Shown: positions 38,662 through 58,851 of the stretch, in pieces
Layout of the letters: each line of letters begins with the position of its first letter
Numbering within the stretch: position 1 is the stretch's first letter
NCBI RefSeq assembly: GCF_016097555.1
Contig: NC_054699.1
Location: 10,031,429 to 10,095,428 of the forward strand
DNA from: Gigantopelta aegis
Taxonomy: Eukaryota > Mollusca > Gastropoda > Neomphalida > Peltospiridae
Length of the DNA: 64,000 bases
Direction of reading: 5' to 3'
Made by a program: the position numbers and the translations under genes
Notes under the pieces: model-generated
What the model was told of the DNA's origin: nothing
Databases searched by the model: none
Seen by the model: the letters and a program-made list of their open reading frames with translations, nothing else

Positions 38662-40025
38662 CTTGGTATCGTGTTAGGTTGACCTGGGCGTACAGGTTCT
38701 AAGTCCTTGTAACGATAAACAATAAGAACGTGACACTTTTAGTATGCTGCAAGGTTTAATATCTAAGACTACCACTCCATGCCTGGGGTAACTCCCCGTA
38801 TGTACTTCTGTATTAAATCCCTAAACTATTTAGATGCTCTCTAACCTTACATCCCCCTTTCTTTAAGATTAAACTTAATTTTACACTTCCCGACTTAACT
38901 GTTCTTTCGTGTTCCAAATAACAGTCCTACTTGCAGTGTTCAGATAAGAAACTGGCTAACTACTGAAACTAATATCTCTATGCAGTTCAACCTAAAACAA
39001 AACTTCCCACATTTAAAGGTCCAGTTTTTGTGGTACTTTAACTACACGACTACTTCTGGTTATAATCCCCTTTGGTTGGGTGTTTGTTACATCAGAAGAC
39101 GACGACGACGCTGAAGCGGACTCTGTCATGGTCTCCTCAGACATTACTGGTACAGGATCGATATCCATAGAAATATTGTTCTCTGCAGGGTTTGGCAAAG
39201 TCGATGACACTGCAGGGTTGATCAGTTGATGAGGAGGCGGACTTGAACTTCGTCGATTTAGGTGCCTCCTATTCCTTCTGCGTAGCCCAGTCGATGTCCT
39301 GACTGCATAAGATCTCGGACCAATAGGCTTCACAACTTCCCCCTTCATTTCATTCGTTTCTTTGATCCAAACCTGATCTCCAGGTGACAGAGTCGGAAGT
39401 GTAGTAGCTCTATGCCGCCTGTCAAAGTTCTTTTTCTGCACTTCCTTCTGGTTTGCATTTGCTAACTTCGTGTCAGCCAGCTTAGGCCAATCAGGAGTAA
39501 GCAAGGCAGGGACGACTGGAACTCTCGTTCTCAGGCAACGGCCCATGGACATTTCTGCTGGACTGAAACCACACTGGAGAGGAGTCGCTCTGTAGTTAAG
39601 TAGCGCCAGATATGGGTCTTCAGCTTTCAACAGAAAATTCTTAACCGTCTGCACAGCCCTTTCAGCTTCTCCATTAACTTGCGGATAATGAGAACTGCTG
39701 GTTTCATGGGTGAATCCATATTCTGTAGCAAATCTGCTGAATTTCTGGGATGCAAATTGTGGTCCATTATCTGATTGAACAACTTCAGGAATCCCGTGTC
39801 GTGCGAAGATACTCTTGCAATGAACATGACACCATATCGTGTTAGGTTGACCTGGGCGTACAGGTTCTAAGTCCTTGTAACGATAAACAATAAGAATGTG
39901 ACACTTTTAGTATGCTGCAAGGTTTAATATCTAAGACTACCATTCCATGCCTGGGGTAACTCCCCGTATGTACTTCTGTATTAAATCCCTAAACTATGTT
40001 AGATGCTCTCTAACCTTACACTTGG
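38662..40025 (-). mobile_element. Ty3/gypsy-type LTR retrotransposon remnant (fossil)
   Basis: Two direct LTRs, 38667-38851 and 39835-40020 (185-186 bases), are flanked by a 5-bp target duplication CTTGG (38662-38666, 40021-40025). Inside the left LTR lies a purine-rich tract (minus strand), as expected next to a 3' LTR, so the element reads right to left. Between the LTRs a minus-strand open stretch (about 39013-39837) codes for the end of pol: integrase core motifs SDNGPQF and GEAERAV, then a GPY/F-like module (GPRSYAV). The element is broken: gag, protease, RT and RNase H are absent. The LTRs differ at about three sites, so the insertion looks young. The left flank is a SINE-D fragment, the right flank another SINE. 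Confidence 0.88.
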
Positions 40026-43617: not shown

Positions 43618-46600
43618 ATGGCTGTAGCAGCTGAAGACCCAAGAAGTTCTTTAGAAGATTGCACGTGCCCAATATGCATAAGTATCATGATTTTCCCCGT
43701 AACAATGCCGTGTACCCATGAACTGTGTATGCCATGTTTTAAGCATAATGTCGAAGAGTCGAGTTTGCTGTGTCCCCTTTGTCGACGAAGAATATCTACC
43801 TGGACGCGACTTGCGTCAAGAACAAATACCTTGGTTAATGAATCCAGGTGGAAACAGATTCGCGAATTGTTTCCAGAGAGAGTGCAGAGACGACTGGATG
43901 GCAAGGACGAAGACGCCAATGAAGAGAGTAAGTTCTGTTAAAATAAAAACCAAAAATGCACTGCAGCATAATTCATATTAATTGGTAATCAAAAACTGCC
44001 CTATTATTTTTTGGGAATTAAAAAATGGAACTGCTTAATCTTGATCATTGACATGACAACACATTTTTTTGGGTAGGACTTTCTTTTGGCACTGTCATGT
44101 ATATTAAAGGACATTATAAATACTTAACATAAATAGAGTTAGGGTTAGGTTTTTGTGAGAGTGCCAGTGCCAAAGGAAAGTCCTTCCGCACAGTACAATG
44201 CAGGGTTGAAAATAGCAGTTGACATGCCTGTAGCAACCTTTATTGGTTACACTGATAGACCATCGCTTTAGAAAGATCTATTTTAGTATTTAAATTTCCT
44301 ACACTAACTGTTTATCCTGAAAGCACAAAGTAATAACACCAAATGGATTTTTAAAAACATTTAAATTAATGTGGAGTGCCATCTGTTGAGTACTGGATGT
44401 TTGGAAAATCTTGTAATTGACACTGTTAATTAGGTTCAAAACATGCCAGAGCTGGGTCACAGTCTATCAAGTATTGTACACATACACAGTGTTCTTGCTG
44501 GGTGAAAATTAAAGGAGGGTGGCCGCTCAGCACCACACCCTTCAAAAAAAGAAGCAAAAAAAACACATACAAAAAGAAAGGGAGGGGGGGGGGGGGGAGT
44601 AGTTTGGTTACCATATTGTTGTGTGTTGGTAGACTTTGTGAAAAGACATACTCCTTATTTTGCCTACAAAAAAGTGCGAAAAGGTTTATAAATACGAAAT
44701 ACAAGTAGACTCGTCTTTTAATTGAACCGAAGATGATATCGGTCTGACATTCACGGGCAGTTCCGGTTTTGCTGGACCGATCAAAGTTTTAATATTATTT
44801 TTAATAAATCTTTCAAGATATACGAAAAACAATAAAGATGTTTGTAAAGTGATCTCCTAATGTCGGATACATTTTTGTTATCTTCATCGAATGAATCGAT
44901 CGCTGTGATAAAATATTATCGCCAGCTGATAACTAATATTTGTGAGTTTTAGTGTATATTATAAATACAGTGTGTTTTAACCAAAATATGGGTATGTTTG
45001 GTTGGTATATTTTTGACCAAAAAGTGAGTGTGTTTTGACCAAAATCGGATACTTACGGTTTGGATACATTTTGACCAGCTCCCTTTGTAAGTCATATTTT
45101 ACACAGCTGTGAATAAGGGATACATTTTTTCATAATAAATGGTTGATTTCTTGATGTAAAACTTTTGTCAATATTTCTTGATATATCAACAATTGTATTA
45201 ATTTTAATAATGTTAGTCTTGATAATTGCAGCTGTTTACCTAATGTTAACAAATGTCTACTTGCAGCGTTTCATCACCCACCAGTTCACCTAGCCGCCCC
45301 CGGTGAAATAAGGAAGGAATATGAAGAGGAACTCCATAAGGTATTCATTGTAATTATATGTATTAATACAGTGTCTTTTCTCGTATTGCTGTCGGTGAGC
45401 CTATTTGGCTATTTCTCGTTTTACCCAATGCACCATGACTGGTATATCAAAGACCGTGGGATGGTGCATATCAAAGATCCCTTCCTACTAATGGAAAAAT
45501 GTAGCGGGTTTCCTCTCTAAGACTATATGTCAATACAGTCAAATCCACTTAATTGGATGTCGGATTATTGTATATTTCGGATATTTGAATATGTTTGTCC
45601 TGCACGGAACCATTTGCCATTATGACAATACAAAATCCAACGGTTAATTGGATGTGTTTTTTAACGTGTTTTCGGAACAAATATAAATTATCCTTGCCGA
45701 ATCTTAAATTGCATGTAAAACTAGGAAAGTTTGTTAACAACTTGATGTGTTTTTTGTAAAATTTATGATCGTACGTAATACCATACTATCGTACATGCAG
45801 AAATGAATACTTGTAATTTATTTAATTTCATTGAAAAAAAAGAGAAAAGACTTACAACAAACTTGATTTTTCTTGTTTCTTAAATTATTTCGGATGACTA
45901 ATTATTAATCAATACATTTACTAATTACATCGTAATTATCCATGAACTCTGAGATTCATCTCAAATGTGACCCAATGGCCGAGACAATGCAGGACAATCA
46001 AGGATCAAAGTAGGTCATTCCCACCTTGTTGGCGGCGATGTGCGTTTCGTAAGCAGGCATCCCTTAATCTCATGTCGGCCACGTTTTTGAAGCAGTATGT
46101 TTAATCCATAAATAAACACTTGTAAGATATTTTTCTCTATGAATTGGCGGAACAGTAACAACTAAAGCTGTTTGCTACTAGTGTTATTTTTTAGCGGGAT
46201 CTTTTGATCACGTGATTTTCCTCTGCAGCTCACAATGTGAGGCCCCATTTGAGGTAATCGATTATGGTGATTACTGTTTAAATTGTTAAATGTCGACAAA
46301 AGGTAAGTTGTAGGAGATTTTCTTGGCAAGTTGGATCATCATCTTTTGGCTATAAATATTGACAAGAACTTTTTTTTCTTCACAATGTCAACATGGCAAG
46401 TAAACGGAAACGAAAGGTCTATTTGGCTCAGAAATACGACGAGATATGTGCCCAGATCTCACCAATGCTAACCCAGAATGAAAAAGACAGAGAACGGGAA
46501 AAGCAGCCAATGTGGAGAAGGCCTTATCAGAATGGTTTTCTGTCGCCAAACAAAAAGACATTCCAAATCGGGCCCAATATTAGCGTTTGTGTTTGTGTTT

Positions 46601-49600
46601 TTCCTTCTGTAAAAATTGAATAACGGCCTTTCACTTATTTGACTTTGGCCAGTCTAGTTACCTGTCAAATCAGTTACAAATGCACACAGATAATAGTCAG
46701 ATAGATTTCCTGGTAAAATACAGAACATGGAAATGACTACTTATTCAAGATTATATGGGTGGGTGGTGGGGGTGGGGTCTTGTTGCATTTGATTTACAAA
46801 TGTACAAAGAAGTTAATAACGGCCGTTTAATTATCAAGAAGTTAATAACGGTCTTTTAATTATTTGACTGTGGCCAGTCTAATTGAGCTTCCGGTGGTTT
46901 TTTATCTGGGTCATTAGATGTTTAGTCACTTCTACTTCTAGGCATACAAACAGCATTAACTGTTGCTTCTTGTATTTATCAAGTTTATAGACAAGTTTAT
47001 AGACAAAACTAGAGTCACAATATGGAACTTGGAATCGATATTTTATTAACACAAAATACTTACCGGTTTCTGACGAAAATTCCACATGTCATGAGGCCCA
47101 AATTGGGAGAATCGTAATTAGGGTTTGCATAAATCAACAAGAGGTCTTAATTGGGTATATCGTATATCGAAATTGTACCTTCGGTTTATTGAATATGTCG
47201 CTTATTTGAATATAATTTTGTTGCACGAGGCACATCCAAATAAGCGGATTTGACTGTATTACCAAATGTTTGACATCCAATTGCTAATAATTACTAAATC
47301 AATGTGCTCTAGTGGTGTTGTTAAACAAAACACACTTTTTTTTGTATCTTAACTACCGTACTACTCATTTATTTAACAACTGGGTATAATACCCCCACAC
47401 CTGATGCCTATAACAGTGTATATCAACAACTACAGAAATATGGGGGGGGGGGGGGATGTTTGTAGATAGTGATTTATATTTTTTATTATATTACGTGTAT
47501 ATCTCTTTTTTGTAGCTTCGACTACAGCGCCTGGCTGAGCGTCAGAAGGAGGCTGAGGAGAGTGCCAAGCTGATCGCTCGACTGGCACAGGAAGAAGACG
47601 ACGTCACACTTCAACGCCAGCTCGAATTGGCGAGAACAGTGCAACTAGACGAAGCTGTGGCCCAGGAACTCAATGAGATAATCAATAACGAGGTGACTGA
47701 CCACAATCTGTCACTCTAGGTGCATGTTATATGCTGCAAAATCACGGCTCAAACGTAATGGCAGCACCAGCGACAATTTGCTGTTACTGCGATATGAATT
47801 GCTGTATGTCCGATACAAGCAAATTAGAGGGCAAGGTTATTTGGCCTAGAGTAATGGAGATTGTTTTTTTTTTGCGCATTAAGGCCAGAAAGCAGGACAA
47901 CAAAGCAAACATCAACAAATGTCTAAATATAACACAACAGCCGACATTAAAAATAAATAACGGGGCTAGCTTTGGCAATCGCCAAATTTGCCAATTGAAA
48001 ATTTGAAAAATAGTTGGGCGAATTTTCATTAAATCTTGGTGACATAATTTCATGTAATAGTTGACATTTTGTTAAAAAAAACCCCACCTGTATTTCTGCA
48101 AGTTTTGAAATTTAATAGATAATTCGACGCCGTTTTCTGCTCACCCAGAGCTAGCCCTGAATATAAGTATAAATGGTTTCATGTTTTCTTTTTAAAAAAA
48201 ACCCCCACTTTCACAGGAGTTACGTTTGAGTATGATAACCAGCTAGTAGCATGCAAAATAAGGCACAGCCAGTATGGTCGTTAGATTATGTTTAATTTTA
48301 AGGGCATTACGGCACTTTGCAGCATGGCCACAGTTAAATTCGAGCCCTGCAGATACTTTATCCACAAACACAATACAGTACAGTGGGAACAGTACTATGA
48401 ATGAATAACAAAGTATCGGTGCATCAGTGAAGGGATTTGTATAGTAGTAATAATGGAAATACAAATGTGTCGTAACCTTATAGGTTACCGGGCCTGGTGC
48501 TTATAAAACTTAGTCTAGACTTGAGACTCTAATAGAGTCTGAGACACTAATGTCACGACAACACCATACAAATTGTATGTGTGTGATGTCATTTGAGATT
48601 GAGTCTGGACTCTATAAAAGTTTTATAAGCACGGGCCCTGGTCTGTATCTTGTGGTAACCTGTACATAGGTCAGGCCCTAATCTAGAATTGAAAAAGTAG
48701 GAGAAGTAAGTTCTCCCATTCCAGAAGAAAGTGGAGAAGTTTGATAAAAATGGGCAAAGTGAACATTTATCAGTACATTTCGTAACGTTTCGCCAGTTTC
48801 CATGTTCAAATTCCAAATTTTACACTGTTCTAATCGTAATATTTCAATATAAAATACTACTTCCTATAATAAAATTTAAACAAAACAGTTGTATGTTTCA
48901 TTATAAACATGATATTAAGTAGTTGATAATGTATCGTTATGTTAAATGGAAGTATTAATTAGTATTTTCTGGTATTACTGAAATAGATGTGGCTGAGGAT
49001 TAACAATACTAGCCCGTTTTACATGTGTACCTGAAGAATATCAACATTAGACTACGACATGCATTTAATCTCTTCACAACAGAAACTGGCATCAGTATTA
49101 ACATATTTTGTTTGAATTTTGATAATAAATTGAACACGGTAAAACATTATTTCATCAAACATTATTTCATCAAATCAATCATACATTACAGTGCGCATGC
49201 ACAGAAACCACTTCCTATTAATAGGCCGGTTCACGATTATTCAAGGATACAGTCTGGCACCAAAGTAAAAACACTGGTTGACGTAAGGTGACGAGGTACC
49301 ATATATGTTAAATACTAAATTTAGCTGTAGTTTAAAAAATGTGGTGAGGTGTCTTTAAACAACTAGTTCTTTTCTTTATTTTATGTTTCGGTAATATAAA
49401 AGGTTTTGCAAGCCAAATTGTTACAAATGCTTTTGGCATAATCCCACAGTGGGAAGCTGAAAGGACACTAACCTGACTTCTCTCCCCGGGCCTAGTAACC
49501 ACTAACAAGGAACTGTTAACCTGTTCCTAACTTTTGCTGACCGTGCTGTTAAGGGGAGCTATCACTCTCCCCTGAGACTAGTCCAAGTAGAGTAATTTTT

Positions 49601-52600
49601 AGCTCCCCTTAGCACGTGAATTTATATGGTATCAATATGATAATATCCTAAATGGCTCCCTATAATCTTGTCAGGGGAGCAATAAATCACTGGCCTCAAC
49701 TTTTTTTTTCATGGAGAGATCTGCTTTTCTAGCCTTAGTTAATAAAAGAAATTAATTTATTTATGGTTTAGGTATTTCAAGTTATCTATTAATGATGAAG
49801 GCTGATGGAGTGCTCTCCCATAAATTACAATTGTTGCACTAGACAAAAATAACCAACACATGTTAAATAAAGTTTACAAGTACTTTTTTTTAATTATTTT
49901 TTTTAATCAAAGATATAATAAAACAGAGATAAGTGATTAATTACTTCCTTAACTTAGATTTTGGGTCCATATTACTATATATATCATGGGAATTTCAAAT
50001 GGATTATGGAAAATCTTTTTTTTTTATTTTTTTTTTTACCAATTTAAAATAATCTAAGAATAGATATAGAATTAAAAGAAAGAAAACTAAAAGGTAATGG
50101 GAAGTAACTTTAAAATGTGAAATTTGGTTGCTAAAGTGTAGGAACCCTGTAGAATTTTAAGATGCATCAAAAGTAATAAATGTAGTGTTATATAAATTTT
50201 TGCGAGCAGTAGACGTGTATAGGTTTCAAAACAGTATATAGACACAGCTAACAGACTGACTTTGTGTTTTCTAGAATGCGCCAAGCACATCTACAGAAAC
50301 TCTGAGATTTACTGGAAGTTCGTCTAGTGCAAGCACATCAAGCAGTCTCAGCGATCGCAGCACCTTGGTGGCGTTCTTCAGTCCCAAGGTCATGAAGGCG
50401 AAGGATCCATACCCATACAGCTGTATTTCGCCAGCAGACAAAGAGAAGGAAGACAAATCTGACGGGCTTGGGTCTGTGGTGGACACCGCTTCAGGCAGAG
50501 GTTCTGCGAGTGCCAGGGAAGATTTCAGACTGTTTGACACGTCTGACCACACATACTGTCCACCGTCGCACTCAAACAAACCGAGCACAGTGGGACGGCC
50601 ACCGAGTAGAGAGGGAGAGGGAGAAGGTTCCAGCACAGAGCAAATATCTTCCAGCACGAGTCAGAGACCTTTATGCAGAGAGCAAAGACCTCCAAGCAGA
50701 GAGCAGAGACCTTTAAGCAGAGAGCAGAGACCTCCAAGCAGAGAACAAAGACCTTCAAGCAGAGAACAAAGACCTTCAAGCAGGGAACAAAGACCTCCAA
50801 GCAGAGAGCAGAGACCTTTAAGCAGAGAGCAGAGACTTTCTAGTAGAGAACAAAGACCTCCAAGCAGAGAGCAGAGACCTCCCAACACAGGTCAGAAGTC
50901 TGCCAGCACAGTGAAGAGACCACCGAGCAAAGAGCGAAGCCCTCCCCACAAAGCTAAAGAACCTTTGAGCACAGATATCATTGCATTGTTGTCGCCGCCG
51001 CCGGTTGACAGAAGAGAGAAACGGGACGACGCTGAGAGGAGTGCCAGCACCACGAGCAGTAACGACAGCATCAACAACGAGCTGTCTCACTTCAAACCCA
51101 TAACCGCTTGTCCCCGAACTCCGCCGCGGAAACTTGCAAATGGCGTTCTGGTCGATCCACCAGTCGTTCGAACGACTCCTCGGAACCTTTCGAGAAACGA
51201 CTTCAGCCCATTGCACGAGCCGTCGTCATCGTCGTCGGGACTCGACCCAGGGAGCCCGTTCATGCAGCGCCGCTTACTGGAGCTGGCCGAGGAGCGGAAA
51301 CAGATGGTGAAGGAACGGTCAAAGTCCACGTCCACGGCAGCTGCCATTCCAAGTCGGGTGGACGATATGGATCAGCATTTGGTGGGTTGCTTCTCTGCTG
51401 AAGATGTGGATGGACTGGAAAACCTGGTGCGTCGTCCTCTACATAAGCATTTAGACCAGAACAGCGATGCTAACCCTGCGACTAACCCTCCTGCCGTGGA
51501 ATCGAAAACGAGTCTCTTGATTCCCATGGAGTCTATAATCGAAGACGACGATCTGATAGACGTCCCATCGCTGTTTCCTCGCTTGAAGCCTGAAGAAACA
51601 AAAAATCTCTGTAATGAAAAGGAAAATGTTATACAGCCATCTTCAAGTGGAGCGTCGTCGACTGAACGGTCAAAACTGCAAGGCAGTAAGTCGTCGAAAA
51701 ATACAACAAATAAAAATAGAGAGCCCAAAAGCAGAAAGAAAACTTTGACTTCTCCTCAGAGATCCATCAAAGACTGGCTAATTAACAGTGAGAAACGTTC
51801 TGAGGGTGCATGTATATCCCCAGACTTATTCCCGAATGATTCAAATTCGTCTGCGAATTTTGAGCCCGTAAGTAAGGCAGATGACTCTCTGGTGTCAGAG
51901 TCTTCTAAGCTGGATTCCTACATAGACAGAAATGCAAATGAAAGGTTTAAGAGTAAGCATACGAGGTATATACAGCTGGATGAAGATTCTAATGACTCTG
52001 ATTGTGAAGTCGTTTTTTCTATAAGGAAAGCAGACTTGCAGGTTGGCAAGAATGATTTGGTGAAAGACAGAGGCAGTCTTGCTGATCACGGTTATCACAA
52101 GGATATAACTAGTACAGTAGTTCCTGTTGTTCCTGTTACGAGTATTAGTATCCCTGATCAAGTCGGAACCGATAGTCGAGATATCAGTAAAAGTTGTTCT
52201 ACCCTCTGTGGAGATATTTCAATGCCATCACATTCCAATAGTAAAAGTCTAGTAACAAGTAAAAAGGATTTGCAGAGTGGTAAGCTCTTTACTGAAGAAG
52301 TAAACAGTAGTGGTGGTAAGAACGCCGTTGCAGAGTGTGATAAAAATAAACATCTAAACACATCGGTGTCAAGCAGAGGACGACTGATAAAAAAGAAATC
52401 GTATCCGTCTGACGACGAGGATGATAGTTCCGAGGAATTCATTGCAAAGTCGCTGTTGCCAAAGAAAACCGTTCGCTGTAAAATGGGCCAAACCTTGAAG
52501 AAGAAGGTTAAATCGGGAGGGAATGAAAACACCGATACACTGACCCACGGCAAAGCCACACGTCACAGCAGCAGTTTGGACTTGGTGTCTCGTTCGACAG

Positions 52601-53664
52601 GACATGTACCTTGTGTATCATCCTCATCATCAACCACGACGAGGACCGGGAAGGTTCGATCCCATGCAAGCAGTCTCGATTCCAGTGTTGTCCAGTCGGA
52701 TGCAGATACCAGCTCGAAGATTCAACCCGGGGAAAGGGAAGGAAAGAAAGTTTCGAAGGGGCGATGCAGATCTGGAAGGGACAACTCTGTGGATGCTCCG
52801 ACAGAGGGCGATGAGAAGAATTACTGCATACAACATGATGTTTCTTCACGTAGTGTTCCGAAGAGCAGAACCAGAGGGGCTGCTGCTTCTAAGCATAGAC
52901 AAAGATATTATTCTGGACAGGAGACGGCTGAGCGTAAACAAAGCCGTAAAAAACGGAAATTCGTAATTGGTGAGGATGTGGCTGATCCTGTAACACCAGT
53001 GAAACCGAAACCAGATTCGGACTCGTTGCAAATCGACAGAGATGAGTGGCAGTGTTCTAGTCCAAAAAAGGGAAAAACAAGTCCGAGGAAAACGTTACGT
53101 AGTTTTATCAAATTTTTTGAAGTGCTATCTCCAAAGAAAAGAGCTAGAAAGAAAACTATGCAAACTTCAAATGTGTCTGAATTACCCACTCGAGGGAGAA
53201 GAAAAAGAATCCCAAATGATGTGCATATATCAGACTCGTCAGATCCAGAAAAAAGAACATTTGGTGAAAAGAAAAAGACAAAAAGTTATTTTGGGATCTC
53301 GGAATCCTTTGTTGCTGAGAAAGGGCATCCGAGGAAGAAATTAAACAGTTGCATTGTTGATGTTCCGCAGTGTTCAAATACGTTAAAAAGAAGAAAGCGT
53401 CCAAGGAAAACTTTAGGAAAGACAACTGGTGGTTCAGTGTCAGTAAGAAAAACTATTGGTAGCAAGAAAAACCACTTGGACGTGTGTAAATCTCCCACTC
53501 ACAGTGAAGTGTCTCAGTCGCTGTCCCAGGAGGACCACGATGGTGTTATTGCGCGTAAACTCCAGAAACAGTTTGACCTCGAAGTCAAGTTGAAGCTGGT
53601 AGAGGGTAGATTTAAGGGAACCGACAAACAGTACTACTTCCGTAGAGAACCAAAGTACAGCTGA
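43618..53664 (+). CDS. RNF168: RNF168/RNF169-type RING E3 ubiquitin ligase (4 exons)
   Basis: E3 ligase family that ubiquitinates H2A N-terminal lysines at DNA breaks and reads ubiquitinated nucleosomes. Exons: 43618-43927, 45267-45340, 47516-47692, 50275-53664; joined length 1316 residues, far longer than human RNF168 (571) or RNF169 (708). RING C3HC4 at C17-C20, C32-H34, C37-C40, C52-C55, followed by the R56-R58 patch (family acidic-patch contact). LRM1-like APGEIRKEYEEEL at about 114-126, UMI-like LIARLAQEEDD at 147-157, MIU1-like DEAVAQELNEI at 173-183. The long exon codes for a Ser/Lys/Arg-rich, probably disordered region with an 11-copy heptad (317-390), QRSIKDWL at 682-689 (PIP-box-like), an acidic stretch with DCEVVFSI near 763 (SIM-like), and basic clusters. 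The end has MIU2-like VIARKLQKQFDLE (1278-1290) and LRM2-like KGTDKQYYFRR (1301-1311). Strong start context (A at -3, G at +4). Probably the single ancestor of the vertebrate pair. Confidence 0.93.
44075..44184 (-). mobile_element. AGGACTTTCC MITE with telomere-like core, copy 2
   Basis: Same ends and same interior as the copy at 1083 in opposite orientation, with fewer telomere-like units (GAGTTAGGGTTAGG). RNF168 intron 1. Confidence 0.8.
44185..45266. other. RNF168 intron 1: nothing recognised
   Basis: Poly-G at 44581-44597; TTTTGACCAAAA-type phrases (44980-45080) recur but form no array. Confidence 0.45.
45389..47336 (+). mobile_element. SINE-B, split by the Tigger-like element
   Basis: Parts 45389-45535 and 47257-47336; tail GTTGTTAAACAAAACACAC. 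Head missing. Confidence 0.85.
45536..47256 (+). mobile_element. Pogo/Tigger-like DNA transposon inside a SINE, RNF168 intron 2
   Basis: Terminal inverted repeats of about 25 bases start CAGTCAAATCC at both ends, with TA at 45534-45535 and 47257-47258 (target duplication). The SINE reads through cleanly when the element is left out. Transposase fragments remain: MASKRKRKVYLAQKYDEI (46393 on), like the CENP-B-type N-terminus, and in another frame from 46518 KALSEWFSVAKQKDIP, like the Tc5-type HTH. No DDE catalytic part is seen, so it is a deleted copy. It is a plain DNA transposon of about 1.7 kb. Confidence 0.82.
47961..48159 (+). mobile_element. CAGGG-MITE beta, copy 2, RNF168 intron 3
   Basis: GGGGCTAGCTTTGG ... 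CCCAGAGCTAGCCCTG; interior GCGAATTT motifs shared with the copy at 2096. Flanks AATAA and AATAT (4 of 5). Confidence 0.72.
48490..48639 (+). mobile_element. Palindromic GCTTATAAAA MITE, copy 6, RNF168 intron 3
   Basis: GGGCCTGGTGCTTATAAAAC ... GTTTTATAAGCACGGGCCC with core ACCATACAAATTGTATG. Confidence 0.82.
48640..50274. other. RNF168 intron 3, right part: AT-rich
   Basis: Apart from the inverted repeat at 49549, nothing recognised; ends in the exon 4 acceptor TTTTCTAG. Confidence 0.45.
49549..49613 (+). repeat. Inverted repeat GCTAAGGGGAGCTA
   Basis: TTAAGGGGAGCTA and TAGCTCCCCTTAGC about 40 bases apart, with a further GGGGAG/CTCCCC pairing; a short MITE or hairpin in RNF168 intron 3. Confidence 0.55.
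50662..50883 (+). repeat. In-frame 21-bp coding minisatellite in RNF168 exon 4
   Basis: Ten full and one partial 21-base units code for the heptad Q-R-P-x-S-R-E, residues 317-390. Position 4 varies among P, L and S; one unit has C for S and one has L for P. Each unit has net charge near +1. The period is a multiple of three, so copy-number change keeps the frame. Confidence 0.95.
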
Positions 53665-53893
53665 TGTGGCCATACAGCGGGCTGTTTAACCTCTTGAAAG
53701 ACTGCTGGAAAATGTGATATCTTCTAAATATGCTATTGTATGAAATGATGTGTATAACATTAAACAAGTGAAAGCTGCTACAGGGTAAATTTAAGGGAAC
53801 CAACAAACGGTACTTGTTCTATAGCAAAACCAAAGAATAGCTTATATGCTCTTTAAACTGAAAAAAAGAGAACCTGCTGGAAAATGTGATATC
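53587..53893 (+). repeat. Tandem copy of the RNF168 LRM2-coding tail in the 3' UTR
   Basis: Copy 1 (53587-53722) codes for the last residues KLVEGRFKGTDKQYYFRR, the stop and the first 60 UTR bases. Copy 2 (53766-53893) is a diverged repeat of the same stretch; read in the corresponding frame it gives KLLQGKFKGTNKRYLFYSKT and then a stop (TAG 53838-53840). Both end in the same CTGGAAAATGTGATATCT. Copy 2 lies after the gene's stop and is non-coding as annotated. Confidence 0.85.
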
Positions 53894-53957
53894 TGTTAAA
53901 TCTGTTAAGTGGGAAATGAATGTTTATATCTGATGTTTATACAGTGCACAAATCAGC

Positions 53958-53963
53958 AATAAA
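53958..53963 (+). promoter_or_regulatory. Poly(A) signal of RNF168
   Basis: AATAAA 294 bases after the stop codon. Using it would include the duplicated LRM2 segment in the 3' UTR. Confidence 0.55.
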
Positions 53964-54052
53964 GTCAACTAGTTGCCGGTGGTCGGCTAGATGGTTTTCA
54001 GCTTGTAGAACCAATTTTCTGTTGGTCATGTGATCAATTACAGTTAAAGTAG

Positions 54053-54325
54053 CAGGGCTTGAAATTAACGGGCAGCAGGCAGCAAATGCCTCTCGAAATA
54101 CGTAATATGCTTTCTAATATAATTGGAATTAATTTCACAAGCACATTTTGCTTTCCATCCTATTTTGACAGCAGTCCTGCTAACAAAAGTTATACACCAC
54201 AAGTCTAATTAGAAGTTTAATTCTGAGACCCTAACATTTTATTTGCTTCCAGAATAAAATTTGAGAAGCAGACATTACTTCCTATTCCATTCCAAAAAAT
54301 TTTAAAAATTAATTTCGAGACTTGC
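54053..54325 (+). mobile_element. CAGGGCTTGAAATTA MITE, copy 1
   Basis: CAGGGCTTGAAATTAACGGG ... TTAATTTCGAGACTTG inverted ends; interior matches 26577-26970. It begins about 90 bases after the RNF168 poly(A) signal. Confidence 0.65.
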
Positions 54326-54402
54326 AATTGTTGAATAATTTAAACAATTTGGGGTCCTCACAAGTTGCTGTTATGCTAAGGTGTTCAGAATGAGTCAGAA
54401 AC

Positions 54403-54716
54403 AACCATGGGTTGTTAATTGACATTGGGTAATGCCAAACATAAGAAACCAACCATGGGTTGTTAGTTGACATTGGGAAATGCCAACCATGGGTTGTTAG
54501 TTGACATTGGGTAATGCCAACCATAAGAAATCAACCGTGGGTTTTTAGTTGACATTGAGTAATGCCAACCATGAGTTGTTAGTTGACATTGGGAAATGCC
54601 AACCATGGGTTGTTAGTTGACATTGGGTAATGCCAACCATAAGAAACCAACCATGGGTTATTAGTTGATATTGAGTAATGCCAACCATAAGAAACCAACC
54701 ATGGGTTGTTAGTTGA
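54403..54716 (+). repeat. Minisatellite with 34- and 48-bp units downstream of RNF168
   Basis: Core ACCATGGGTTGTTAGTTGAC then ATTGGGTAATGCCA, with or without a 14-base ACCATAAGAAACCA insert; about seven units. Confidence 0.9.
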
Positions 54717-55010
54717 CTTTGTTGTTGGATTGTGTACTGTACATGTATGTGCAATTATTCTTGATTACTGTGAAGCTGCTGTGAAGAAAGTAGCTGCTGT
54801 GTATAATGTATGATGTTTTTACATACATTATTAATACAGGTAGTTAAATAGGGACTGAGGGACCATATACAAAGTATGGAAAGGTAGATTTGGGTTAGTT
54901 TACATAGGTTGCCATACAAGGTGGGGGGGGGGGGGTAGGTCTGTGAGTAGTGGTGAAGGTAGCCAAATGTGTGTACTTTCTTTGTTTTAATATGGGTTTA
55001 TTACAACTGA

Positions 55011-55271
55011 CAGTGTTTCTGCCAGAATATGTTTTGGGTATGGCACTATGAAATTGAATATTTATAATGTGTGTGATCAATGTAACCGCAGTCGACGGGG
55101 TATGGGGGGCCTCCCCCCAGAAAGAAGATGGGTATGGTTTAGGTTAGGGTTAAGAAAATTATACAGTAATGATAAAAATAATTAATTTTGTTAAAATGTT
55201 AAGCTTAAAAAAAAATAGCAAACAATTTGGGTATGGCGCCATACCTGTTTTATCTTCTGGCAGAAACCCTG
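55011..55271 (+). mobile_element. CAGGG-MITE alpha, copy 4
   Basis: Ends CAGTGTTTCTGCCAGA and TCTGGCAGAAACCCTG; exact 5-bp duplication ACTGA (55006-55010, 55272-55276). Confidence 0.87.
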
Positions 55272-55708
55272 ACTGATTTCATTTGTATTGGCTGAGATAT
55301 TGGCATCTTTTATTATTGAAATATACTTTGGTAAAACAGTGCTGTCAGTATCAGCATAATAGGTAAAATAAACATTCTTCAGATGATACTAATAGATACT
55401 CCATCAGGCTTATGTCTGGTGGGGATGGGATGGTGTGGGTGCATGCTTACCAAATTGTGTTTTATATGGCTTTGGATGTGGTCAAACAGTTGTGTGTGCT
55501 TGCATACATGTGTTGTCTGATGTTAGTAAAAGTATTTTTTTTTAGCATAAAGTACTTTGTATGTGGTCCCTAAATGAAAGAATACGTGTATATAAAGACA
55601 TAAACCTTAGCCTAAATGGAAACGTCTTAATTTGCTAAATCTCATATGCAGTGTTCAAATCAACAATAAAATCAACTACACCTAAGTGGATAGATACATG
55701 GTTTTTAG

Positions 55709-55984
55709 CCTGTATTTCCCTCTCCCTCCCCCAATAGCCTGTGTGTCTGACCAATATAAATGTAAAAAAACTATAAAAAATTGGATGAAGCAACAAATAA
55801 GGGGCTCTATGTGTTATTTTGGGGGTAATTACAAACTCCCCCCAATAGCCTGTACCTCCCCTCCCCCCAATAGCCTGTGTGTCTGACCAATAAAAATGTA
55901 AAAAAGAAAAAAGAAAAAAAAAGTATTTGGATGAAGCAACAAATAAGGGGCTCTAGGAGTTATTTAGGGGATAATTACAAACAT
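55709..55984 (+). repeat. Tandem duplication of about 135 bp
   Basis: CCCCCAATAGCCTGTGTGTC ... GGATGAAGCAACAAATAAGG occurs twice; a third CCCCCAATAGCCTGT lies between. Confidence 0.85.
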
Positions 55985-58851
55985 TAAGAAACTAACTGCA
56001 TGTATGGATGGTTGGTTGACTTTATTGTTGGGTCATGTGTGTGTAGCCATTGCGATGGTATTTTGTGGGGCCGTTTTATATAAGGAACACAAACAACCTT
56101 TATGAGCAAATGTCTGAAGATTGCACCAATTTGTCGAGACAAAAAGCTGTATTACTATTAATAAGAACCTATTTTTAATGAATGCTCAGATTGTGTTCTT
56201 TATATGACATGGCCCAATAAATTAATACCCTATTTTCATAATGAAGGCTAATGATTTGTTTGTTTTCTTTTTGTCGTGGGTATCACAGGAATATTACAGT
56301 AACTACATTTATTTGTTAAGTAGAGCTTTATGACTAAGTAGTGCTTTGTGGCTAAGTATTTTATATATTTTATGAGTATCTAACCACTAACCTCACAGGC
56401 AACTGTAACACAGATTAACATACATAAATAAAACTATTGTATAATGGTAAATCAAGATTGGTTTACGCAAGTAAATTTGGTGTGTATTGGTAAATGTTAT
56501 ATAATTTCGACAATATTTGCGTTTTACCCTCTTCATTCATCTCAATTTTATTGCCTTTTAACGTGTATGTATTTATAATAATAATTTCTATCTCTACAAT
56601 ATATTTTTTGTTCAGAATACATGTTAAATGGCTATAAGATTGATATTATGTATGAACAGAGTATAAGCAAAATATTGTGTAAATACTTGCATATAAAATG
56701 TACTAACATTCAACGATTTTATTTATGTGTACTAATCAGTGTCAGGTGGCTGTGATTAAACCATGTGTACAGTGCATCACACATTTGTCCTCATTGATTC
56801 TGTCATTCTGTCTCTAAGTCTAACTCAATTTTAATGTAGGGCAGGAGGAAGCTGGGTTATGTGATGACTGATGTGTCACAGGATCCAATGCCCTCCAGGG
56901 ACATTTTTTTTTCTCTTCCCTATCCCAACCAATGGAACGATCCTCTATCAGGGTTCGTATGGGTCATGAAAATCCTGGAATTTGCAGATGTTACTTTCCA
57001 GGCCCCAGAATATTAAGGAATTTTTTAGTTTGGTCATGGGGATTTCAAAAAAAGATAGTTTTCAGGCAACATCTGTTAGTGTTGGAAAGTATAATTTTCA
57101 TGTCCATTATTCGGAATTTCCACCATCAAATTCTCAAGTAGTTTATCACTTGCGGCACTGTACAATATCCATGATATAAATGAATTCTTGGAAGTCCAGT
57201 AACTTGATTTGATGAAAATCCAAATCGGTTCTGATGAAATTAAATTACGAAAATGTATTTTCAAATGCCCTCACCCCCCTCTTTTTTTATCTTAATGTAT
57301 TTGATCATCTTATAAGCTGGTATGATATTTTTGTCTTAAACTTGCACAAAATGAGATTTTTTTTTTGACATATCTGTATATTGTGAAGAGATTTTTTTCT
57401 ATTCTGATTGCACATGTATGTTATCACCTGTGAATATTTCTTGCAATCTACTACCCAAAACATTGAAAATCTTATTTGGAGGCGAGTGAAGGTGTGTGTA
57501 CCTTTAATGAGTTTAGACATTGTTGTTTGAAATGGGCACAATCTGATTGAAATGGGCATTATGAATTGTTATATATATATATTTTTAATACAAATATGTA
57601 TTAAGAAAATGTTTGAAAAAAAAATGAAAGCAAAATTATATTGTTAATTTAGGTAAGATGATATAGTACATGTATTAGAAGAATATTTGGTTCATTTTGG
57701 AATGCAAAGCTGGGATTTGAATGTAATATATGTAAAACACAATCTATGCATGATATTTATATTTATTGTTAGGGCATGTTTAATTTGATTTTGTTTTAAA
57801 TTACCATGGATTTTGGTGTGTTTTAGAAAAATGTGCTGGATAAGCACCTCTTACAATTACTTATAATCTTAAAAGTTGTGCTAGTATCAAAGTTTTATGT
57901 TTGTATTTTTATCTTCTGTTTTCACTCTTTTTCTCTCTTTCTTTCTTTTTAATTTTTTTTTTTTTTTACAGAATTATAATTTATCAAACCCAATTAGTTA
58001 TGAATTTTGTGGACTGCATTTATACAAATGTAGAGTAAGCGTGAAACGCCCTTTAAAACAAACATGTACATGTATCAAAATCTCCTACTTTTAAAATGTG
58101 AAACATCACATTCTAAATTAATAATAATAATAAAAACTAGCTAAAAAGAATGTTTTTGATTGTTATTATTTTGAATTAATTGACATTTATCGGTAATTAA
58201 ATTTTAAAATAAAAATATTTCTTACAAAAACAAGATTTTCAGTGTATTTTATTAGGGGGGGAGGAGAGCAGGATGATAAAAAAAAAGAGAAGGAATTTAA
58301 AAAAAGTATGGTTGGTACTTTTCTATAACACAATGTAACAGAAATTTTCAAATTTCTTAGTTATGTCAATTTTTGTGTTGATCAGCACTGATCTTGTAGC
58401 AAGGGTCTCTGGTTCGAATCCCCCCAGTGGAGGCTGATATATCTGTTACACTGCTCTAGTGTGTCCTGCTTGTGTGGCTCGTTCACTGTATTATTATTGT
58501 GTTATTTACCGAATACTTGTATCACATTCAGATTCTTTTCCCCATTGACAAGAATGTGCAATAAATCTGTATATCCTCACAAATTTTAAACCCCACCTCT
58601 CACAAAACCAATTTTTCTTGTGTTATGCAATATCACTTAGGGAAGGTGGTGTGTTCAGGTGAGTGAGCACTTAATATTGCTGGTCAGACAAGTTTTTTTG
58701 TGGCATGATAGAACTAGATGGTACTAGTCAAAATTGTTTGCAAGTGTCTGCCCTCTGAACTTGTCACTGGTATGCATGGTCATTGCAAACTTTGAAACTT
58801 TCGATTGACAGCAGATAGACCCTCCTGCTGTTGCACTCTGGGCTATTGCAG
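55985..58851. other. Intergenic: AT-rich, one old repeat
   Basis: Besides the repeat at 56949, a B-box-like GGTTCGAATCCCC at about 58412 is the only notable motif. No ORF with coding character. Confidence 0.45.
56949..57180 (+). repeat. CAGGGTTCGTATGGGTCATG repeat
   Basis: Begins CAGGGTTCGTATGGGTCATG with AAAATCCTGGAATTTG; resembles a dispersed element found in many animals. Right end unclear. Confidence 0.45.

Follow-up and report, generated by a model that had tools for sequence, protein, structure and literature searches.

A probable decaying copy of the LRM2-like coding tail in the 3′ UTR of an RNF168-like gene of Gigantopelta aegis

The coding end of an RNF168-like gene of the gastropod Gigantopelta aegis recurs, head to tail, directly downstream of itself. 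We analyzed the gene within a stretch of 64,000 nucleotides (the window) and conclude that the repeat very probably reflects a partial tandem duplication that is neutral and has left its second copy decaying in the 3′ UTR of RNF168. The two copies are adjacent, the reading frame of the second one is broken, and its former coding part is no better kept than its UTR part. The arrangement illustrates how the end of a coding sequence can be duplicated into the 3′ UTR while the protein stays the same. As it stands, the case is of little weight, being another small tandem duplication amid repeat-rich sequence.

A tandem repeat across the stop codon

Local alignment paired positions 53586–53756 (171 bases) with 53765–53928 (164 bases), and 128 of the 157 ungapped columns were identical. 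The score of 106 was far above that of 1000 dinucleotide-preserving shuffles (mean 18.3, maximum 32), and a second scoring scheme gave the copy pair 78.5 against a shuffle maximum of 30.5. A blastn search of the unit against the window returned the same pair at E of about 4.5e-19. Together, local alignment and blastn establish that the repeat reported here by the initial annotation is real. The unit was rejected as a dispersed repeat, given that its next best place in the window scored E = 0.10.

The period is 179 bases, in agreement with the earlier estimate of about 180, and the aligned ends are separated by 8 bases; these two values indicate one head-to-tail tandem duplication of adjacent copies, whose similarity is far above chance. 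The duplicated unit starts inside the last exon of RNF168 and ends in its 3′ UTR (Table 1), and the second copy would be expected to end at about position 53936. The shared part is longer than originally described: it comprises 25 whole codons plus the stop, rather than approximately 18 residues, and the alignment extends 92 bases past the stop, rather than 60. After 20 of the 25 shared codons, copy 2 carries a one-base insertion. Tandem Repeats Finder, run on positions 53400–54100, missed the repeat even with the minimum score set at 30, which we attribute to the divergence of the copies and the gaps in their alignment. A third copy was sought downstream (54742–55100) and not found, the scores of the two units there being reached by 208 and 57 of 500 simple shuffles.

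Table 1. Positions in the window of the RNF168-like gene, the two copies and the downstream poly(A) signal
Feature	Positions	Strand	Basis or remark
RNF168 coding exon 1 (RING)	43618..43927	+	E = 2.6e-28 to RNF168 chain 4gb0_A
RNF168 coding exon 2 (model)	45267..45340	+	frame-consistent splice model
RNF168 coding exon 3 (model)	47516..47692	+	frame-consistent splice model
RNF168 last coding exon, MIU2/LRM2-like tail at its end	50275..53664	+	open frame, 1129 aa
Copy 1: final 25 codons with the stop, plus the initial 100 bases of 3′ UTR	53586..53764	+	alignment
Copy 2: diverged, broken	53765..53936	+	aligned to 53928
AATAAA, nearest canonical poly(A) signal downstream of the stop	53958..53963	+	poly(A) use presumed

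The host gene

Judged from its sequence, the gene upstream of the repeat reads as RNF168-like, and the match of its RING exon bears out the identity first given to it. When the RING exon was compared with PDB sequences, the best 14 of the 62 matches were all RNF168 or RNF168-containing fusions (E = 2.6e-28 to 3.7e-26), and the next one was a RING2-BMI1 chimera at E = 2.6e-9. Exon 1 therefore carries an N-terminal RING domain of the RNF168 type. A Pfam scan, which covered the first and last of the four exons at E up to 1, matched exon 1 to 15 families, of which most were RING fingers and PF00097 alone exceeded its curated cut-off; the last exon matched none. Exon 3 presumably encodes a UMI/MIU1-like stretch, as judged by eye.

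The four exons joined in frame to give 1316 aa with a single terminal stop; a model with exon 1 shortened by one base contained 44 stops and was dropped. Splice sites were scored with matrices and expressed as percentiles among the plus-strand sites of the window (3265 AG and 4110 GT). On this scale, the exon 1 donor stood at the 99th percentile, the exon 2 acceptor and donor at the 82nd and 93rd, those of exon 3 at the 99th and 98th, and the last-exon acceptor at the 96th. Relatives of the RING exon were also sought in viral contigs, where 11 stretches fitted a pattern and none was confirmed. A literature search on RNF168 in molluscs and invertebrates found no paper.

Two further repeats were observed within the last exon. 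An in-frame 21-base repeat at 50628–50880, with approximately 12 copies, encodes REQRPPS-like heptads. Closer to the C-terminus (53082–53460), the basic motif PRKTL is recurrent, at residues 1124, 1206 (PRKKL), 1230, and 1244 (VRKTI); a 49-base stretch at two of these sites is 71% identical.

Resemblance of the C-terminal tail to RNF169 UDM2

The last 59 aa of the RNF168 model matched RNF169 UDM2 (5vey_C) weakly, at E = 0.0042; the other of its two matches was APC16, at E = 1.4. Equivalents of the RNF169 residues were assigned by manual counting on the alignment of this tail with 5vey_C. Copy 1 and the sequence upstream of it align to UDM2, which consists of MIU2 and LRM2, and the MIU2-like stretch ends directly upstream of the duplicated unit. 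Copy 1 keeps Arg at the place of R689 (codon at 53608), Tyr at that of Y697 (codon at 53632), and Arg at that of R700; the L699/R700 pair corresponds to Phe-Arg (53638–53643). The Leu of this pair is replaced by Phe in both copies, unlike RNF169, and copy 2 departs further in having neither an R700-equivalent nor a MIU2. According to PMC5426901, Ala substitutions at R689, Y697, L699, and R700 abolish the recruitment of RNF169 or reduce its function, and LRM2 works jointly with MIU2.

Coding status of the second copy

Translated in register, copy 2 reads Lys, a stop, KLLQGKFKGTNKRYLFYSKTKE, and another stop. The first of these stops is a TGA, the second whole codon of the copy, and translation arriving from upstream would end there unless splicing removed it; the other is a TAG located downstream of the insertion, one codon ahead of the place of the original stop. 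The peptide KFKGTNKRYLF, which had been pointed out as surviving in copy 2, is indeed present, but a stop lies five codons ahead of it and Tyr follows at the place of the key arginine. As 179 equals 2 modulo 3, copy 2 is outside the reading frame of RNF168. We rejected translation past the RNF168 stop into copy 2, because it would proceed in the wrong frame and end at a stop after 10 codons.

The codon comparison covered the 20 codons ahead of the first indel (53587–53646), of which 11 were the same, none differed synonymously, 8 differed non-synonymously, and 1 was a stop in copy 2. The comparison stopped short of the one-base insertion of copy 2 and so excluded the final five codons and the stop; at a fixed register, these six contain one synonymous difference (AAG/AAA). 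Neutral simulations, in which random changes were placed in copy 1 (n = 5000), gave means of 2.1 synonymous changes, 7.3 non-synonymous changes, and 0.6 stops, and a probability of 0.10 for no synonymous change. The zero observed fits neutrality, short of proof. Identity was 64 of 79 columns in the former coding part and 64 of 78 in the UTR part, and hence the coding part is not visibly better preserved than the UTR part.

The two arginines expected of a functional LRM2 are both missing from copy 2, with Lys (AAA) as the equivalent of R689 and Tyr (TAT) as that of R700. An open frame joined to MIU2 is likewise missing, owing to the TGA and to the position of the MIU2-like stretch upstream of the unit. 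The in-frame stop and the substitution pattern led us to reject copy 2 as a preserved coding sequence. By eye, a Leu and a Ser of copy 2 agree with RNF169 at two places, unlike copy 1, so some of the changes may have occurred in copy 1.

The LRM2-like tail lies within the duplicated unit, and copy 2 accordingly shares its origin with coding sequence, as the initial annotation supposed in describing it as once coding. The accompanying view of a duplicated functional module is unsupported, since LRM2 acts together with MIU2 in RNF169 (PMC5426901) and the MIU2-like stretch is outside the unit.

Splicing, regulation, or decay

Copy 2 could alternatively serve as a terminal coding segment, reached by an intron starting in copy 1 that swaps the tail to GKFKGTNKRYLFYSKTKE. 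The candidate intron has the donor CTG/GTAGAG at 53599 and the acceptor CTACAG/GGT, with the exon starting from 53784; the two sites are phase-compatible, and their use would skip the TGA of copy 2. Mutually exclusive terminal exons following a tandem duplication are known, for example in the fly gene pip (PMC9013439). The scores of the sites are less encouraging: the acceptor reaches the 54th percentile, compared with the 82nd, 99th, and 96th for the modelled RNF168 acceptors, and the donor is at the 86th, compared with the 99th, 93rd, and 98th for the modelled donors. Higher-scoring sites occur nearby, namely a donor at 53606 (92nd percentile) and acceptors at 53701 (77th) and 53825 (72nd). 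Splicing between the copies is thus weakly supported by the sequence. Moreover, all 8 non-stop codon differences among the 20 codons are non-synonymous, and the product would have Lys at the R689-equivalent and Tyr at the R700-equivalent, with no pair resembling R689/R700. An alternative tail from copy 2 is possible but unlikely, and we consider the specific intron described here very improbable. A more elaborate form of this reading is that, in some transcripts, the intron between the copies replaces the LRM2-like tail with one without the anchoring arginine, yielding an RNF168 isoform that binds ubiquitin and not the nucleosome acidic patch and that acts as an intrinsic brake on DNA-damage signaling. 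Such an isoform, if true, would mean that RNF168 naturally uncouples ubiquitin binding from acidic-patch binding; we regard its existence as extremely doubtful.

A non-coding role can also be envisaged, with copy 2 kept as a regulatory element of the 3′ UTR, i.e., a duplicated RNA element or binding site. The longest identical run in the alignment spans 26 columns once gapped columns are removed, and a 34-base block of the UTR is 88% identical. Were the changes spread evenly, a run of this size would be slightly unexpected, and a constrained UTR element is therefore conceivable, but the run length is not significant (P = 0.083, 5000 column shuffles), and the coding and UTR parts are equally identical. 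A regulatory role therefore appears unlikely.

Decay of copy 2 is the better explanation. Of the two fates initially proposed for it, decay or provision of an alternative C-terminus, the former is favored by the in-frame stop, the wrong frame, the lack of synonymous changes in 20 codons, the even level of identity across the coding and UTR parts, the missing R700-equivalent, and the mediocre splice acceptor; the latter is not favored. Slippage during replication, or repair by end joining, would have produced a head-to-tail duplication of approximately 179 bp, broken on one side within the final RNF168 coding exon and on the other within the 3′ UTR. The rest of the coding sequence still runs into copy 1 and terminates at its stop, so the protein would have remained unchanged and copy 2 would have been born as 3′ UTR. 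Since then, copy 2 has presumably drifted without coding constraint, carried along in the UTR.

The 3′ UTR and its downstream neighborhood

The first canonical AATAAA lies beyond copy 2, and copy 2 would most simply be transcribed as 3′ UTR. The variant ATTAAA is found earlier, at 53759; if this signal is used instead, copy 2 would be outside the transcript.

A transposon-like element at 53940–54741 begins a few bases past copy 2. It has CAGT...ACTG ends flanked by TA, and its terminal inverted repeats are identical at 34 of 49 positions, whereas the best of 5000 shuffles reached 24 of 49. We take it to resemble a Tc1/mariner-type MITE. Its first terminal repeat holds the AATAAA at 53958, and the element may therefore be the source of the RNF168 poly(A) signal. 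A minisatellite inside the element (54397–54721) has a unit matching the inner part of the right terminal repeat, as would result from an inward amplification of that repeat.

Tandem duplications in the window and in known systems

The window was compared with itself for same-strand pairs at E up to 1e-8 and an offset of up to 600 bases, which disclosed 33 pairs in 16 clusters. By hand count, 11 of the 16 clusters, that of RNF168 included, contain a pair with a gap of at most 18 bases; some of the other clusters may be pairs of dispersed elements. Adjacent repeat clusters thus occur about once per 6 kb of the window. This abundance indicates that small tandem duplications are common here, and no special cause is needed for one of them to straddle a stop codon.

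According to PMC9013439, tandem exon duplications are abundant, and this holds for UTRs and coding parts alike. The RNF168 repeat resembles the duplications described there in that part of an exon is found again, in head-to-tail order, close to the original. It differs from them in that only the end of the exon was copied, and in that copy 2 has a broken frame and neither a convincing splice site nor any sign of coding constraint. A literature search on partial tandem duplications across a stop codon into the UTR gave no case of the RNF168 type among the matches listed, as far as the text available for these sources goes.

Additional features were observed elsewhere in the window. An open frame of 297 aa on the minus strand (39013–39906) resembles, as judged by eye, the integrase end of a retroelement polyprotein. 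A possible second element at 55649–56031 has terminal repeats related to those of the element downstream of RNF168 (left-end match at 55649–55678, right-end match at 56031–56004), and it also holds a two-copy tandem repeat of approximately 146 bases at 55719–55982.
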